A DNA stretch of 64,000 bases from Gordonia jinghuaiqii. Lineage in GTDB: Bacteria > Actinomycetota > Actinomycetes > Mycobacteriales > Mycobacteriaceae. A program made the translations under genes and the position numbers. The stretch lies in assembly GCF_014041935.1 (NCBI RefSeq), contig NZ_CP059491.1, positions 4,464,001 through 4,528,000 of the forward strand. Reading direction: 5' to 3'. The notes below the pieces were generated by a model that saw only the letters and a program-made list of their open reading frames with translations, had not been told where the DNA came from and did no database searches. Shown piece after piece: positions 24,491 through 32,271 of the stretch (position 1 is the first letter of the stretch; every line of letters begins with the position of its first letter).

Positions 24491-25873
24491 ATGACCGCGT
24501 CCGTAACGGAACACCTGCACCACGTGAACTCTGTCCTCGGCGACGCGGTCGTCGACGACAAGGAATCCGGCGTCTACCGTGCCAACCGAAGGATCTTCAC
24601 CGACGAGGACATCTTCGAGCTGGAGATGAAGCACATCTTCGAGGGCAACTGGATCTACCTGGCCCACGAGAGCCAGCTTCCCGATCCGGGCGACTACTTC
24701 ACCACCTACATCGGCCGGCAGCCGGTGGTCATCACCCGCGACAAGAGCGGCGAGCTGCACTGCCTGATCAATGCCTGCGCCCACCGCGGCGCCATGGTCT
24801 GCCGTCGCAAGACCGACAACCGGATGACCCTCACCTGCCCCTTCCACGGCTGGACGTTCCGCAACGACGGCACCCTCCTGAAGGTCAAGGACCCCGACGG
24901 CGCCGGCTACCCGGACACCTTCGACGTCGACGGCTCGCACAACATGACCAAGGTCGCCCGCTTCGACAGCTACCGCGGTTTTCTGTTCGGCAGCCTGAAC
25001 GACGACGTGACCTCGCTCGAGGACCACCTCGGTGACACCCGCATCGTCATCGACATGCTCGTCGACCAGTCCCCCGATGGCCTCGAAGTGCTGCGCGGAG
25101 CATCGACCTACACCTACGACGGCAACTGGAAGGTCCAGGCGGAGAACGGTGCCGACGGTTATCACGTCACCGCCACGCACTGGAACTATGCGGCCACCAC
25201 GTCGCGGCGTGGCACGGGTGAGTCGAAGAACGACACCAAGGCGCTCGACGCCGGTGGGTGGGGAAAATCAGGCGGCGGCTACTGGTCGTACCCCAATGGC
25301 CATCTGTGCCTGTGGACCTGGGCGGCCAACCCGCAGGACCGGCCCCTCTGGGACAAGATGGACGAGCTGAAGGACAAGTTCGGCGATGCCAAGGGCGAGT
25401 TCATGGTGAAGGGTTCGCGCAACCTCTGCCTGTACCCGAATGTGTATCTGATGGATCAGTTCTCCACGCAGATCCGCCACTTCCGGCCGATCGCGCCGGA
25501 CAAGACCGAGGTGACGATCTACTGCATCGCACCCAAGGGCGAGAGCGATTCGGCTCGCGCACACCGCATCCGTCAGTACGAGGACTTCTTCAACGCCTCC
25601 GGCATGGCCACCCCCGATGATCTGGAGGAGTTCCGCTCCTGCCAGCTCACGTTCCGGGCGCAGGCAGCTCCGTGGAACGACATGAGCCGCGGAGCGCAGC
25701 ACTGGCTGACCGGGCCCGACGACGTCGCCAAGACGCTCGGCATGACCGGCGTCATCTCGGCGGGCGTCAAGAACGAGGACGAGGGCCTGTACCCCGTTCA
25801 GCACGGCTACTGGCTGGAGACCATGCGCGCCGCCGCTGCCGCCGAAGAAGCAGCGATCGCCGACCGGCACTGA
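24491..25873 (+). CDS. benA: Benzoate 1,2-dioxygenase large subunit
   Basis: This 460-residue Rieske oxygenase alpha subunit dihydroxylates benzoate to the cis-diol acid. The Rieske 2Fe-2S ligands are Cys96, His98, Cys116 and His119 (CAHRG and CPFHGW). The mononuclear iron ligands include His225 and His230 (DGYHVTATH). ATG 24491 has GGAGG eight bases upstream; the frame is open 15 codons further back. It begins the benAB(CD) operon, which runs to 29435. Confidence 0.96.
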
Positions 25874-25899: not shown

Positions 25900-26466
25900 A
25901 TGACCACCGCAGACACGAATCCCACCACAGACGCACATGCCACGGCGGCGGGCACCGAATCCGGCGCCGGCGGAAAACTGATCACCCAGAACATGATCGA
26001 GCAGTTCCTCTACCGCGAGGCGCGCTACCTCGACGACCGTGAGTTCGAGAAGTGGCTCGAGTGTTATGCCGACGACGTCGTCTACTGGATGCCGTCGTGG
26101 GACGACGCCGACCGTCTCACCGAGGACCCGCAGCGCGAGATCTCGCTCATCTACTACGGCAACAAGGGCGGCCTCGAGGACCGGGTCTTCCGTATCCGGA
26201 CCGAACGGTCCTCGGCGACATCGCTGCCGGAGGCCCGGACGAGTCACAACATCAGCAACGTCGAGGTCATCGAACGTCGCGGGGATCTGGTCGACGTCCG
26301 ATTCAACTGGCACACGATGTATTTCCGCTACAACACCATCGACCCGTACTACGGCACATCGTTCTACACGATCGACTTCTCCGGCGCGCAACCCCTGATC
26401 CGGCGCAAGACGATCGTGCTGAAGAACGACTACATCCACCACGTGGTGGACGTGTATCACTTCTGA
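25900..26466 (+). CDS. benB: Benzoate 1,2-dioxygenase small subunit
   Basis: The 188-residue beta subunit has the ring-hydroxylating dioxygenase beta fold. An N-terminal extension rich in Thr, Ala and Gly (1-25) precedes LITQNMIEQFLYREARYLDDREFEKWL. The C-terminus RRKTIVLKNDYIHHVVDVYHF is typical of BenB/XylY. It lies 26 bases after benA, with a GGGA ribosome site before ATG 25900. Confidence 0.95.
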   Translation: MTTADTNPTTDAHATAAGTESGAGGKLITQNMIEQFLYREARYLDDREFEKWLECYADDVVYWMPSWDDADRLTEDPQREISLIYYGNKGGLEDRVFRIRTERSSATSLPEARTSHNISNVEVIERRGDLVDVRFNWHTMYFRYNTIDPYYGTSFYTIDFSGAQPLIRRKTIVLKNDYIHHVVDVYHF

Positions 26467-26546: not shown

Positions 26547-29435
26547 ATGACTGTCATCACCGACGCGGGTGCCGGCACCACCGCCCACACCGACGCGAAC
26601 ACCCACCAGGTGGCGCTGTCCTTCGAGGACGGGGTCACCCGGTTCATCACCTGCCGCGAGGACCAGACCGTCGCCGACGCGTCGTACCGGCAGCGCATCA
26701 ACATCCCGCTCGACTGTCGGGACGGAGCCTGCGGAACCTGTAAGGCGTTCTGCGAGTCGGGCGATTACGACGGCGGCACCTACATCGACGATGCGCTCTC
26801 CGAGGACGAGTCCGCCGAAGGTTATGCACTCCCCTGCTGCATGAAGCCCAAATCGGATCTGGTGCTGCAGATCTCGGCGACCTCGGAGATCGCGAAGACC
26901 CAGGCCTCGAGTTTCACCGGCACCGTCGTCGAACTGGAACGTCTCTCCGAGTCGACGATGCGCCTGGGAATCCGCATCGAGAACCGCGGCCAGTTGGCCT
27001 TCCTGCCAGGGCAGTACGTGAACATCGCGATCCCCGGCACCGACGACGGTTCCGGAGCGCCGGTGAACCGCTCGTATTCGTTCGCCAACGAACCGCACGA
27101 GGATCGGCTGATCTTCCTGATCAAGCTCACTCCGGGCGGAGCGATGTCGACCTACCTGACCGAACGAGCGGTACGCGGTGAGGAGGTCACCTTCACGGGC
27201 CCGCACGGCTCGTTCTTCCTGCGGGAGGCCACGCGTCCGATCCTGTTGCTGGCCGGCGGAACCGGACTGGCCCCGATCCTGTCGATGCTGCGAAAGTTGC
27301 ACGCCGACAAGAGCCCTCGCAGGGCCCACCTGATCTACGGCGTCTCCTCCGACACCGATCTGGTGGCGATAGACGAGATCGAGTACCTCGCCGACCAGCT
27401 GCCCGGATTCACCTGGGACCACTGTGTCTCCGATCCGGCGAGCACCGCGGTCAACAAGGGCTACGTGACGAGCCTGATCGAACCGGCGCACCTCTACGAC
27501 GGCGATGTCGCGATCTACCTGTGCGGCCCGCCGCCGATGGTGGAGGCCGTGCGCAAGCACGTCGCGGAAGCCGGCATCGAGCCCACCGGTTTCTACTACG
27601 AGAAGTTCGCTCTGGCCGCGCAACCCCCGGCGGCCCGGGCCGAGGCCGGCAGCGTCGAGAACACCGAGGTCCTCAGCGAAGAGGCCATCGCCGAGGACAC
27701 CTCCGCGACAGACATCTCCGCCCAGCACACCTCCGGCCAGGCCGCCTCGGTCGTCGTATCGCCCGGGTCGACCCCTGCCGACGCCGACGAGCCCGTCCTC
27801 ATGGCTGCCGACGCCCGTGCGATCGCCGGCCAGACGGTCTTTCCGCCCGCCGACCTCGGCGTGTGGTCGGGTACGCGGACCGCCGCGGCAGAGGACGATT
27901 CACTGGTGCGGATCGCCGGGCAACGCCTGTGGCGCGGTGACATCGGCGAACGGGATCTCGACCCCGACGCCGGTGCTCTCCAGCCCACGGCGTCGCAACC
28001 GTCGGGGCCGGCGCGCTCGATCGCCGGTCAGGAGATCTTCGCTGCGGCGGACATCGCCCAGCTCCACAACCCTGCCCCGGTTGCCGTCGCGGCCGCACAC
28101 GGTGAGGTCACAGGCGGGGAGGTCGCAGACGGGGAGGCTGCCCCCACCGTCGTCGGGTCGCAGGGCTACCAGATCGGCGAGGAGCATCCCGCGATCCACG
28201 AATCCGATGCACTCTTCGAGGCCCGTGCCGCTCTCGAACTCGGCGCTCTGGAACTGACTTTCGGCCGGCTGTCCAGTCAGCAGCTCACCGGTTACCGGTT
28301 GCTCGCCGACGCCACGGTCCCCTACGTGGACGGAGATCGGTTCGTCGACGCGGCCCAGTACACCGAGACCAACGCCGCATTCCACGACTATCTGTTCACC
28401 CTCACCGGCAACGACCACCTCCTCGAGGCGTACAAGGCCCTGGGTGTGAAGGGCCGGATGAGCGAGGTGTTGCGGAACGCCACGTGGTGCCACCCCCTGT
28501 GCGCGCAGGATCACCTCGACATCGTGTCGGCCTTCGAGAGTGGCGACCACGACGCGGCACGCGCCCTGATCTCCGCCCACGCCGACCGGTCCAAGCAGAC
28601 GATGCGTCGGGCGATGGCCGACGAGATGGCTGCGCGCCGTCCGCGTTTCGTCACCCCGGGACGTTTCGCCGGTAAGGTCGTCGTGATCACCGGTGCCGCA
28701 CAGGGTATCGGCGAGCACGCGGCGCGCCGGATCAGTGCGGAGGGCGGCAAGGTCGTTCTCGCCGACCGGTCCGAGCTCGTCGACGAGGTTGCCCGCGATC
28801 TCGAGTTGTCCGGTCCGGGTGCGGTGTCGGCCATCGCCGACCTCGAGACCTATGACGGCGCCGAGTCCGTCGTCCGCCGTGCGGTCGCGTCGTACGGTCG
28901 TGTGGATGTCCTGATCAACAACGTGGGCGGCGCGATCAACTTCAAACCGTTCACCGAGTTCTCCGCGGAGCAGATCCGCGCCGAGATCGACCGCTCGCTG
29001 ATGACCACCTTGTACGCGTGCCGGGCGGTGTTGCCGTCGATGACCCGCAACGGCGGCGGGGTGATCGTCAACGTGTCCTCCGCCGCCACCCGCGGCATCC
29101 ACCGCGTGCCGTATTCGGCGGCGAAGGGGGCCGTCAACGCGATGACCGCCTCTTTGGCCATGGAGTATGCCGACGACGGCATCCGGGTGGTTGCCACCGC
29201 ACCGGGCGGAACCGAGGCACCACCACGCCGGATATCCCGCGGCACTCCCGAGCCGCGCAACGAGACCGAGGCGCAGTGGTTCCAGGCGCACATCGACCAG
29301 ACGGTGTCGTCGTCGCTGATGAACCGGTACGGCACGCTCGACGAGCAGGCCGCCGCCATCTGCTTCCTCGCTTCGGATGAGGCGTCGTACATCACCGGAA
29401 GTGTGCTGCCGGTAGCCGGAGGCGATCAGGGTTAG
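26547..29435 (+). CDS. benCD: BenC-FCD-BenD fusion: benzoate dioxygenase reductase joined to diol dehydrogenase
   Basis: One uninterrupted 962-residue frame encodes three modules. Residues 1-355 are BenC: a 2Fe-2S ferredoxin domain (Cys57, Cys62, Cys65, Cys97), an FAD site (RSYSFAN, 175-181), an NAD site (GGTGLAP, 237-243) and CGPPPM (326-331). Residues about 360-550 are a low-complexity Ala/Thr/Asp/Glu linker with three IAGQ repeats. Residues about 555-690 match the FCD ligand-binding domain of FadR/GntR regulators, with FHDYLFTLTGN (His613), QDHLDIVSAFESGDHDAAR (His656) and His678, but no DNA-binding domain. Residues about 705-962 are BenD, an SDR with TGAAQGIG (715-722), Tyr856 and Lys860, which oxidises the cis-diol to catechol. 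GAGGA precedes ATG 26547. Reduction and diol oxidation exchange the same NAD pool, so fusion could couple them. Confidence 0.93.
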   Translation: MTVITDAGAGTTAHTDANTHQVALSFEDGVTRFITCREDQTVADASYRQRINIPLDCRDGACGTCKAFCESGDYDGGTYIDDALSEDESAEGYALPCCMKPKSDLVLQISATSEIAKTQASSFTGTVVELERLSESTMRLGIRIENRGQLAFLPGQYVNIAIPGTDDGSGAPVNRSYSFANEPHEDRLIFLIKLTPGGAMSTYLTERAVRGEEVTFTGPHGSFFLREATRPILLLAGGTGLAPILSMLRKLHADKSPRRAHLIYGVSSDTDLVAIDEIEYLADQLPGFTWDHCVSDPASTAVNKGYVTSLIEPAHLYDGDVAIYLCGPPPMVEAVRKHVAEAGIEPTGFYYEKFALAAQPPAARAEAGSVENTEVLSEEAIAEDTSATDISAQHTSGQAASVVVSPGSTPADADEPVLMAADARAIAGQTVFPPADLGVWSGTRTAAAEDDSLVRIAGQRLWRGDIGERDLDPDAGALQPTASQPSGPARSIAGQEIFAAADIAQLHNPAPVAVAAAHGEVTGGEVADGEAAPTVVGSQGYQIGEEHPAIHESDALFEARAALELGALELTFGRLSSQQLTGYRLLADATVPYVDGDRFVDAAQYTETNAAFHDYLFTLTGNDHLLEAYKALGVKGRMSEVLRNATWCHPLCAQDHLDIVSAFESGDHDAARALISAHADRSKQTMRRAMADEMAARRPRFVTPGRFAGKVVVITGAAQGIGEHAARRISAEGGKVVLADRSELVDEVARDLELSGPGAVSAIADLETYDGAESVVRRAVASYGRVDVLINNVGGAINFKPFTEFSAEQIRAEIDRSLMTTLYACRAVLPSMTRNGGGVIVNVSSAATRGIHRVPYSAAKGAVNAMTASLAMEYADDGIRVVATAPGGTEAPPRRISRGTPEPRNETEAQWFQAHIDQTVSSSLMNRYGTLDEQAAAICFLASDEASYITGSVLPVAGGDQG

Positions 29436-29531
29436 ACAGCCGGAGGCGATCAGGGTTGGACAGCCGGAGGCGATCAGGGTTGGACAGCCGGAGGCGATCA
29501 GGGTTGGACAGCCGGAGGCGATCAGGGCTGA
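29412..29531. repeat. Five tandem 24-bp repeats starting inside the benCD stop region
   Basis: The unit, beginning AGCCGGAGGCGATCAGGGTT, is repeated at 29412, 29436, 29460, 29484 and 29508. The first copy encodes the last residues and the TAG stop of the fusion gene. Copies 2-4 carry G for the A of the stop, and copy 5 is diverged at its end. The array separates benCD from the LAL regulator. Confidence 0.95.
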
Positions 29532-29556: not shown

Positions 29557-32271
29557 ATGATGGTCACCGCCGCGTGTGTCGGCCGCGACCGCGAGATCGA
29601 GGTGTTGTTCTCGCGGCTGCGGTCGGTGGCGAGTGCGGAGTTCCTCGCCGTCACCGGGGATCCGGGCAGCGGAAAGTCCACGCTGCTCGACCATCTGGTC
29701 CGGCGGCGGCTGGCGTCGGCGGAGTCCGGCCCGACGCTGTGGGCGCGGGTGACACCGTGGCAGGCCGAGGTTTCCGGCTCACTGGTCCGGCAACTCGTCC
29801 AGCACGTCGGAGACGCCCGCGAATCGTCCACCGAGGATGACGATCTGGTCGGCATGCTCGACGCCGCGGTGCGATGTGACACGGATGCAACGACACTCGT
29901 GGCGATCGACGACGCCGACCTGGCCGATGAGGAGTCGATCCGGGCGCTGGTCACCCTGACGCGGGACCATCGCGCGAGGCGTCTGCTGATCGTCGTGACG
30001 ACGACGCGCCCCGGCGCGGGGCTCGCCGGACTGACGTTCGACGAGCTGCGACTCGCGGGCGTCGGCCCGGAAGGTACCGCCGACATCGCCGCGCAACGCG
30101 GCATCGTGCTCCACCCCGCCATGCGACAGGAACTGACGCGCCACACCGCGGGCAACCCGCGCGACATCGTGGCACTTCTCGACGAGGTTCCCGCGAGCAC
30201 CTGGGCGCGCAGCGGCACGCAGCTCCCGGCTCCGCGATACATCGTCGAGAACGTACGAATGTCGCTGCCGGAGAGCAGAACCCCGGACCGCGCGCTCATC
30301 GAGGCCCTGGCCATCCTCGACGATGCCGAACCATTGTCCACCGCAGTCGAACTCGCCGGCATCGACGATCCGCTGGATGCGCTCGACGCGGCCCGGCGCA
30401 CCGGTCTGGTGACCGCCGAAGGCGCGCTGACACCTGCCGAGGCACAGCCGCGGATCGTCACCCCGATGGTGCGTGCCGCAGTCCTGGAGGTCTTGGGGAT
30501 GAAGGCCGTGGGTGAGGCGCATCGGCGTGCCGCGGAGGTGGTCGCCGACCCCGCGCGCCGCCTGCACCATCGTGTCGCCGCGACCCCCACCGCAGACGCC
30601 GACCTCGCCGACGCACTCGCGGAGCTGGCCCGTACCCGTGGCGCCGATGGCGCGTGGGCGGAGGCAGCGGGACTCTACCGCCAGTCCGGCAGGCTCACGC
30701 CGGAACCGCTGCAGCGTGACACGCGGGTGACCCTCGCGGTGGATTCGCTTCTGGCCGCGGGCGATTGTGTCGGCGCGGGGGCTCTGGTCCCGACCGTGGA
30801 GAGCCTGCGGGAGACCCCACTGCGAAATGCCACGCTGGCCTACCTCGCCATCCTGCGCGGACGGTCGGCGGAGGCGCAGCTGCGCCTCGACCGCGCGTGG
30901 GGAATCGTGAGCGTCGAACGTGAACCAGAGGTCGCCGCCCTCATCGCCCAACGTCATGTGTTGCACAACCTGGTCCGATGCCAGGGCGCCGAGCTGGTCA
31001 CGTGGGCCGACCGCGCCATGGACATGGCCGAATCCGGGTCGGCGGCGCGCGTGGAGGCCGCGGTCATCCGCGGGCTCGGCCTGGCGTGGTCGGGTCATCC
31101 GGATGCGGCCCGCGCCGAATACGAGTCCGTGTCCGAGCGGATCAGGTTCGGCGCGCAGGCCCAGCGGGCCATCATGGGACGCGGGTGGTTACAGCTCGGG
31201 CTCGACGAGATCGACGCCGCACGAACCAATCTGGAGTCCGCGGTGTCGATGGCGCAACTCGGCGGGTCCACCCGGATCTCGTTGTGGGCGCTGGCCTGGC
31301 TGGCGAGGGTGCAGTTCCTCACCGGCGACTGGGACGAGGCGATGCGCAGCGTCGACGAAGGCCGGCGGCTGGCACGCAGCAGCGGCATCGCCCTGGCCAC
31401 GCCGCTGTTGAATTGGACTGCGAGCCAGATCTTTTCACTTCGGGGAGACTGGGAGGACGCGCACCGCAGCGTGGCGCAGAGCACCACGTCGATCGGCGAT
31501 TACGAGATCATGCGCATCCCCGAACTACTCGCACGAGCCCAACTCGCCGAGGCCGGAGCCGATTACGGCAAGGTGCGACGAATCCTCGGGCCGCTGGAGA
31601 AGATGGCCGAAACCGTTCCCGCGCTGTCCGAACCCGGTTTGTGGCCGTGGGTCGATGCACTCGCGAATGCGCAGGTCATCGAAGGTCAGTACGACGCCGC
31701 GGACAGATTGCTCCGCACCTACGAGGAGCGGGCGGCCGAACGCGGGCACCGGTCGTCGGCTGCCCGGCTGAAGAGTGCACGCGGGCGCCACCTGGGTGCG
31801 ACCGGCGACATTCACGGCGCGCGAAGGACTTTCGAAGAAGGCATCGAGCTGCTGGACGGCCTCGGGATGCGGTACGACCAGGCGCGCGTCAATTTCGCGT
31901 ACGGTCAGACGTTGCGCCGCGCAGGCAAACGCCGTGCCGCCGATGCCGTGATCGGAACCGCGCGCGACCTGTATCTGGCGCTCGGCGCGACCACCTATGT
32001 AGAACGCTGCGACCGTGAACTGAAGGCCGGCGGTCTGGCGAGTTCGCGCATCGATTCACGCTCCGACAATCACGGTTCCGCCAGGGATTCCGGCCCGGAA
32101 CTGACCCCGCAGGAGGAGGCGGTCGCGACGCTCGTCGCCCGCGGACTCGCCAACCGCGAGGTGGCGGCCGAGCTGTTCATCTCGCCGAAGACGGTGCAGT
32201 ATCACCTGACCCGGATCTACGCCAAGCTCGGGTTGCGCTCGCGCGCGGAGCTGGCGGCCTCCCGGCGCTGA
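29557..32271 (+). CDS. benR: LuxR-family LAL regulator, BenR-like
   Basis: The 904-residue protein has a Walker A motif GDPGSGKS (34-41) in an ATPase domain, a long middle region of TPR-like helical repeats (about 330-800) and a C-terminal LuxR winged-helix-type HTH (about 840-900), with LTPQEEAVATLVARGLANREVA. Large ATP-binding LuxR proteins (LAL) act as activators. In Corynebacterium glutamicum a LuxR-type BenR follows the benABCD genes, so the same role is likely here. An alternative ATG is one codon downstream. The name is based on position and family. Confidence 0.8.
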   Translation: MMVTAACVGRDREIEVLFSRLRSVASAEFLAVTGDPGSGKSTLLDHLVRRRLASAESGPTLWARVTPWQAEVSGSLVRQLVQHVGDARESSTEDDDLVGMLDAAVRCDTDATTLVAIDDADLADEESIRALVTLTRDHRARRLLIVVTTTRPGAGLAGLTFDELRLAGVGPEGTADIAAQRGIVLHPAMRQELTRHTAGNPRDIVALLDEVPASTWARSGTQLPAPRYIVENVRMSLPESRTPDRALIEALAILDDAEPLSTAVELAGIDDPLDALDAARRTGLVTAEGALTPAEAQPRIVTPMVRAAVLEVLGMKAVGEAHRRAAEVVADPARRLHHRVAATPTADADLADALAELARTRGADGAWAEAAGLYRQSGRLTPEPLQRDTRVTLAVDSLLAAGDCVGAGALVPTVESLRETPLRNATLAYLAILRGRSAEAQLRLDRAWGIVSVEREPEVAALIAQRHVLHNLVRCQGAELVTWADRAMDMAESGSAARVEAAVIRGLGLAWSGHPDAARAEYESVSERIRFGAQAQRAIMGRGWLQLGLDEIDAARTNLESAVSMAQLGGSTRISLWALAWLARVQFLTGDWDEAMRSVDEGRRLARSSGIALATPLLNWTASQIFSLRGDWEDAHRSVAQSTTSIGDYEIMRIPELLARAQLAEAGADYGKVRRILGPLEKMAETVPALSEPGLWPWVDALANAQVIEGQYDAADRLLRTYEERAAERGHRSSAARLKSARGRHLGATGDIHGARRTFEEGIELLDGLGMRYDQARVNFAYGQTLRRAGKRRAADAVIGTARDLYLALGATTYVERCDRELKAGGLASSRIDSRSDNHGSARDSGPELTPQEEAVATLVARGLANREVAAELFISPKTVQYHLTRIYAKLGLRSRAELAASRR

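Follow-up and report, generated by a model that had tools for sequence, protein, structure and literature searches.

A BenC-FCD-BenD fusion protein of Gordonia jinghuaiqii as a candidate substrate-gated benzoate dioxygenase reductase

The window, a stretch of 64,000 nucleotides of Gordonia jinghuaiqii DNA, carries one gene that encodes a benzoate dioxygenase reductase (BenC), an FCD domain of the type present in FadR-type regulators, and a diol dehydrogenase (BenD). We propose, with a probability of roughly 0.55, that in this protein an effector-sensing FCD domain gates the reductase, the enzyme for the following step of the pathway being attached downstream. The sequence evidence for this proposal comes from the architecture, the intact catalytic residues, a conserved site and strong selection in the FCD domain, the lack of an HTH family match, and kinship with FCD domains attached to flavin reductases. 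From these observations we make predictions about the ligand and metal of the FCD domain, the gating of the reductase, the order in which the architecture evolved and what may be gained from tethering BenD.

Results

Organization of the ben locus and the fusion gene

The fusion gene follows benA and benB and is itself followed by a gene for a LuxR-type ATPase regulator. The features are listed below.

24491..25873, + strand: benA, benzoate 1,2-dioxygenase large subunit (TIGR03229, 806.5 bits against a cut-off of 780.95)
25900..26466, + strand: benB, benzoate 1,2-dioxygenase small subunit (TIGR03232, 270.6 bits against a cut-off of 225.55)
26547..29435, + strand: benC-FCD-benD fusion gene (962 residues, single open frame)
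26604..27611, + strand: BenC reductase part, residues 20-355 (NF040810, 474.8 bits against a cut-off of 430, E 1.4e-142)
27612..28181, + strand: low-complexity linker, residues 356-545 (dN/dS 0.35-0.60; mostly low pLDDT)
27816..27833, + strand: linker motif copy 1, RAIAGQ, residues 424-429
27909..27923, + strand: linker motif copy 2, RIAGQ, residues 455-459
28014..28031, + strand: linker motif copy 3, RSIAGQ, residues 490-495
28164..28190, + strand: GYQIGEEHP, residues 540-548 (G540, Y541, I543, G544, H547 and P548 identical in 21 aligned rows)
28212..28586, + strand: FCD domain, residues 556-680 (PF07729, E 4.3e-15, over cut-off; FCD fold; N609, H613, H656, H678)
28662..29432, + strand: BenD diol dehydrogenase part, residues 706-962 (NF040811, 411.6 bits against a cut-off of 380, E 1.2e-123)
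29557..32271, + strand: LuxR-type ATPase regulator, probably benR (GerE and AAA_16 domains)

The likely starts of benA and benB were placed at the ATG of MTASV and of MTTADT, respectively. The genes for catechol 1,2-dioxygenase, a LysR regulator and a muconate cycloisomerase-like enzyme, which at 214 bits falls below its cut-off (335), are divergent from the ben genes.

In the ORF reading of the window, 962 codons run without interruption on the + strand, and the single polypeptide claimed in the first-pass annotation is borne out by its recurrence in other genomes (see below). The annotation had also called both enzymes complete, and this description holds: the BenC part passes the curated NF040810 cut-off with its 2Fe-2S, FAD and NAD motifs intact, and the BenD part passes that of NF040811. 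Residues were compared in an alignment of 62 BenC relatives, comprising 54 full-length rows and 8 rows that lack the BenD part. C57, C62, C65 and C97, which we take to form the 2Fe-2S site, together with R175-S178 and G237-G240, presumably the FAD and NAD motifs, are invariant in 62/62 rows. T715, G716, G720, G722, S844, S845, Y856 and K860 are invariant in 54/54 full-length rows, and we assume that S844/S845, Y856 and K860 are the SDR catalytic residues of BenD. Among the cofactor and catalytic residues checked in these 62- and 54-row sets, the sole exception is a single G-to-A change at position 327.

The middle domain belongs to PF07729, given that it passes the profile cut-off and that a structure model and a structure search confirm the FCD fold, so the checks by profile and structure prediction that had been suggested for this segment gave the expected answer. 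Sequence comparison of the domain with solved structures returned weak matches to DhdR only (E 0.05 and 0.59). The domain had been described as lacking a DNA-binding part and, consistent with this, neither GntR nor any other HTH family is present among the 8 Pfam matches to the 962-residue protein at E <= 0.01. Judged by eye, the GYQIGEEHP segment may be what remains of the final wing strand of a GntR HTH. The full-length structure model has a mean pLDDT of 74.5 and a pTM of 0.45, values at which the arrangement of the domains is unreadable.

The end of the gene coincides with a tandem array at 29414-29527 (24 bp unit, 4.8 copies, 98% matches) that is copied from the final benD codons. The stop codon of benD itself is TAG at the place where three copies have TGG; the final copy closes with TGA. 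Within the genome, the unit was located with up to 3 mismatches at 5 places, all of them in this array.

Distribution of the three architectures

BenC exceeded the curated cut-off in 30 of the 298 genomes in the order sample, and 27 of these, counting the genome of the window, encode BenC-FCD-BenD as one ORF. A BenC-FCD protein with BenD as a separate ORF is present in G289, and BenC over cut-off with FCD absent is present in G281 and G207, which are close relatives (genus code g2); a separate BenD lies behind BenC in G207, in another frame (L185). In the phylum sample of 296 genomes, BenC was over cut-off in three: the own genome and G067 have the three-part form, and G305 has BenC-FCD plus a separate BenD. 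A search of the genome collection yielded 214 stretches coding for a relative, and the best 80 of these 214, meaning the nearest by score, are three-part in 80/80 cases and carry benA and benB; since they were picked by score, this count is uninformative on distant forms. Among the sources of the 80 loci are Gordonia, Mycobacterium sensu lato, Williamsia, Aldersonia, Antrihabitans, Rhodococcus, Amycolatopsis, Saccharopolyspora, Pseudonocardia, Prauserella, Geodermatophilus and Nocardioides, and 75 of them hold a relative of the LuxR-type regulator, in some cases cut short. The BenC of Corynebacterium glutamicum, used as a control in the BenC profile search, was over cut-off.

The fusion cannot be a sequencing error because it recurs in 27/30 order genomes and in the best 80 of 214 loci, and the hidden stop codon or frameshift that the first-pass annotation had named as a refutation is not supported by these data. 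The annotation's remark that BenC and BenD are normally separate has to be restricted, the fusion being usual in this order (27/30 genomes with BenC over cut-off).

More distant forms were obtained with the FCD part at the end of the G305 protein as query: 66 of its 69 matches are BenC-FCD proteins or pieces of them, mostly 518-556 residues long, that lack a BenD domain, the other 3 being flavin reductase-FCD proteins. Named sources of the BenC-FCD matches are Pseudarthrobacter, Kocuria, Citricoccus, Micrococcus, Nesterenkonia, Brevibacterium and a Micrococcales bacterium; BenD as a separate ORF is established for two BenC-FCD genomes, G289 and G305. As a separate observation, seven genomes of genus code g2 hold, in open frames of 854-937 residues, a BenC-like reductase that scores below the BenC cut-off (L100 and L101, in G052 and G007, and five more places). 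The C-terminal part of those in G052 and G007, read by eye, resembles a FAD-dependent oxygenase or reductase.

A conserved ligand-type site in the FCD domain

We take N609, H613, H656 and H678 to be the metal/ligand positions of FCD regulators, which follow the pattern (D or N)-x3-H, H, H. These four residues are present in 62/62 BenC relatives, including the 8 without a BenD part. Of the 22 FCD regulators of the own genome, 6 have D at the first position, 5 have N and 11 another residue, and because of those 5 of 22 with N, asparagine at 609 was ruled out as a hallmark of the reductase-linked domains. A further candidate metal motif, C648/H649/C652, was discarded, as it is confined to three-part fusions and absent from the BenC-FCD rows; nor is it kept in all three-part fusions (e.g., TWCDPR, TWVHPR). 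Two of the four site ligands are lost in L034, one of five flavin reductase-FCD proteins.

Selection was estimated in ten pairs, each joining the window protein to one relative, so that the pairs share the window protein and are not independent. In 10/10 pairs dN/dS is lowest in the FCD domain among the three domains (0.046-0.116), with values of 0.110-0.243 for BenC, 0.064-0.221 for BenD and 0.35-0.60 for the linker. An invariant site combined with such low dN/dS is not the pattern of a passive spacer. Given the kept site, the fold and the constraint, the FCD domain is likely to be functional, and it may well bind an aromatic carboxylate.

Relatives of the FCD domain on flavin reductases

Searches with the FCD segment find, beside BenC proteins, the C-terminal FCD domains of longer proteins. 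At four loci (L187, L188, L189 and L190) the protein contains Flavin_Reduct, a GntR HTH and FCD, each over cut-off in 4/4 cases, and a flavin monooxygenase gene is present within 4 kb in 4/4. This gene adjoins the reductase at L189 (HpaB) and L187 (luciferase-like) and is 3.3-3.7 kb away at L190 (luciferase-like) and L188 (HpaB). One may guess that these four proteins are enzyme and repressor at once. The domain search returned no HTH match for the flavin reductase-FCD proteins P0187 and P0189, and among 54 regulator-size matches a GntR domain is listed for P0239 only (35% identity).

A tree of 61 FCD rows, 22 of them other FCD proteins of the own genome, splits the FCD domains of BenC and flavin reductases, together with P0239, from those 22 proteins (99/100), although the regulators are long-branched and the bootstrap had not settled. 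BenC FCDs are nested inside the reductase-FCD group (91/80); among them a group of metagenome fragments branches first, followed by the Micrococcales and the rest (100/91) and then by G289 with the three-part fusions (98/92); the three-part fusions form a single group (100/100). The flavin reductase FCDs that share the branch with BenC (L034, L035 and L037 among them, L190 having been left out of the tree) are not one group, and support for their inner branches is modest (82/18 to 96/79). A single FCD lineage is thus attached to NADH-type oxygenase reductases of two unrelated kinds. Rooted on the regulators, the tree would imply that a repressor was fused to a flavin reductase, that BenC then acquired its FCD domain while the HTH was lost, and that BenD was added last. 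We infer the direction of the resulting series, from flavin reductase-HTH-FCD to BenC-FCD with a separate BenD and then to BenC-FCD-BenD, from this rooting. The first partner of the FCD domain would be the BenC reductase, with BenD joining later. The existence of BenC-FCD without BenD, and of related FCDs behind flavin reductases without BenD, indicates that the FCD domain is foremost a partner of reductases.

In a BenC tree of 45 rows, BenC-FCD and three-part forms are separate (97/98), and the BenC-alone proteins of G281 and G207 fall inside the three-part group, which suggests secondary loss of FCD. The alternative that BenC alone is the ancestral form was set aside because of this nesting, although an AU test did not reject another placement of these genomes (p 0.115). 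The FCD domain is dispensable in G281 and G207, as BenC is over cut-off without it there.

IAGQ repeats in the linker

The linker is modelled mostly with low confidence, with short hairpin-like spots at the motifs (block pLDDT about 42-63). Linkers could be delimited in 113 of 120 proteins, the other 7 resisting the cut, and contain 186 copies of IAGQ; 200 shuffles give 0.5 copies on average and never more than 3, and the proteins are related, so that the copies are not independent events. One to three copies are present in 92/113 linkers and none in 21/113, and up to three copies are kept per chain while the remaining linker drifts. Most three-part relatives keep the motif. A wider pattern, (I/V)(A/G)GQ, has no match in 12/80 loci, and IAGQ is absent from the linkers of seven Micrococcales BenC-FCD proteins and of L033 and L036.

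Stop-free frames over the fusion in the 80 loci contain 140 copies of (I/V)AGQ in 0.107 million residues, 119 of which could be placed and are all in the linker (21 were unplaceable by the boundary rule); the remaining frames contain 77 in 1.23 million residues, counted in all six frames and wrongly including the fusion of L156 itself. R-x-IAGQ, with R as CGN, occurs at 8 places in the own genome, 2 of them in this linker, as compared with 2 in a backward control. At L095 (G281) and at L097 and L185 (G207), BenC ends in one IAGQ copy, ARCIAGQLVF, with the FCD domain gone, probably an FCD loss in which the motif was kept. That the repeats serve as a docking element is a guess.

Discussion

The occurrence of one FCD lineage on two unrelated kinds of oxygenase-linked reductase suggests substrate control of electron use. 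A precedent for such control is AbHpaC, the reductase (C1) of 4-hydroxyphenylacetate hydroxylase from Acinetobacter baumannii, in which, according to passages of PMC10816480, the C-terminal MarR domain binds 4-hydroxyphenylacetate, thereby relieving self-inhibition and making flavin reduction 30-fold faster or more. That review describes stimulation by substrate as uncommon among such enzymes, and an account of the FAD-dependent HpaC states that it is not regulated by substrate (PMC6165268, in the passage on this enzyme). On the basis of the FCD lineage and the AbHpaC precedent, which is an analogy only because the AbHpaC domain is MarR and not FCD, we propose that benzoate or the diol switches on BenC through the FCD domain. 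Benzoate, or the diol acid, would bind the FCD domain, probably via a metal that N609, H613, H656 and H678 coordinate, and binding would lift a restraint on the reductase part. NADH would then be oxidised, and electrons passed to BenAB, only when substrate is present, and the diol released by BenAB would be oxidised by the tethered BenD, which returns NADH. The fused BenD may help to return NADH or to clear the diol, and this role would be an addition to the gate given that BenC-FCD exists alone. What weighs against this proposal is that proteobacterial BenC reductases, to our knowledge, work without an FCD domain, that the domain is dispensable in G281 and G207, and that the site is partly lost in L034 while its N is shared with 5 of 22 own-genome regulators. 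A more far-reaching version, which we regard as doubtful, is that a repressor fused whole to oxygenase reductases became, minus its DNA-binding part, an allosteric substrate switch; in the three-part form the FCD domain between the two enzymes would set both NADH use by BenC and its return by BenD, with the IAGQ repeats docking the chain to a partner such as BenAB or to themselves.

The BenC and BenD steps are consecutive, the one using NADH and the other forming it, and the first-pass annotation saw in this cycling the reason for the fusion. Under this explanation BenC and BenD are kept together for NADH return or for transfer of an unstable diol, the FCD domain being passive, and retention of the fusion in 27/30 order genomes with BenC and in the best 80 of 214 loci is as expected. 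BenC-FCD occurs, however, without a fused BenD (66/69 matches to the G305 end), related FCDs are present behind flavin reductases, and the most constrained domain, with its invariant ligand-type site, is unlike a passive spacer. Moreover, NADH diffuses freely, and the diol comes off BenAB, a separate protein. Coupling of NADH alone leaves the FCD domain unexplained; it is probably not the main reason for the fusion, and we consider this explanation quite unlikely.

We give slightly more weight to a structural role, which we nonetheless think improbable, in which the FCD domain is a dimerisation module that sets the BenC/BenD oligomer and its ligand site is kept for metal-based stability. FCD domains of regulators dimerise and their metal sites can be structural, and the metal-type site is invariant in 62/62 rows. 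The low dN/dS across the whole FCD domain and the presence of its lineage on reductases of another Pfam family might be held against this role, but both are compatible with it too. The FadR-type fold, and the GntR HTH retained by four flavin reductase relatives, could also mean that the fusion, as the descendant of a GntR repressor, controls ben expression itself. We regard this as highly improbable, as the 962 residues contain no HTH family at E <= 0.01 and the fusion is followed by a LuxR-type regulator gene with relatives in 75/80 loci.

If the FCD domain does gate BenC, as we prefer to think, a common soil pathway would have a post-translational on-switch made from the sensor half of a repressor. 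Reductase-FCD proteins would then make up a class of their own, with the nearby oxygenase as a guide to the ligand of each, and the fusion would offer a natural design for electron supply only in the presence of substrate, as well as a multifunctional enzyme built stepwise. The point worth testing is the repressor-derived sensor on an oxygenase reductase, a feature shared with flavin reductases.

Comparison with known systems

The fusion has already been published by name, and what is new here is the origin of its FCD domain, namely its kinship with the FCD domains of flavin reductases. Relevant passages of PMC6362181 state that benC and benD of Gordonia alkanivorans YC-RL2 are fused with an FCD domain, and describe the same benABCD order as in the window, with LysR and LuxR regulator genes nearby; there the domain is described as C-terminal, and nothing is said of its function, its distribution, its origin or a linker motif. 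In the corresponding parts of two other reports, BenC of Rhodococcus sp. TG-1 is named an FCD domain-containing protein and benD has its own gene (PMC11858498), and benC of R. ruber carries a double-function label (PMC6498646). BenC and BenD are not treated in the relevant passages of PMC10333787 and PMC10215345, and we found no account in the open-licence papers searched of what an FCD domain does in BenC proteins.

BenC-FCD proteins of about 524 residues (Micrococcales, G289 and G305) share with the window protein the reductase, the FCD domain and the N/H/H/H site, which all eight BenC-FCD rows among the 62 aligned relatives possess, as do L033 and L036. They differ in that BenD is separate (G289, G305) and that the linker is short and devoid of IAGQ (seven Micrococcales proteins, L033 and L036). 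The flavin reductase-GntR-FCD proteins L034, L035, L037 and L190, which have a gene for an HpaB-type or luciferase-like monooxygenase in their vicinity, likewise have a C-terminal FCD domain on a reductase, but the reductase is of another family, the HTH is present and there is no BenD. FadR-type GntR regulators (DhdR, VanR, NanR and TM0439) share the FCD fold, and the ligand-site residues of the window domain are as in the FCD regulators of its own genome; these regulators, however, bind DNA through an HTH, for which no match was found in the window protein. A functional parallel may be AbHpaC, in which, as in the window protein, a regulator-like C-terminal domain is attached to an oxygenase reductase (PMC10816480, in part), although the domain is of the MarR type rather than FCD, the reductase is a flavin reductase and no dehydrogenase is attached. 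With a regulator-derived FCD domain placed C-terminal to BenC, the window protein has the arrangement of an effector-gated reductase, and by analogy it may work like AbHpaC, yet it is no member of the AbHpaC family.
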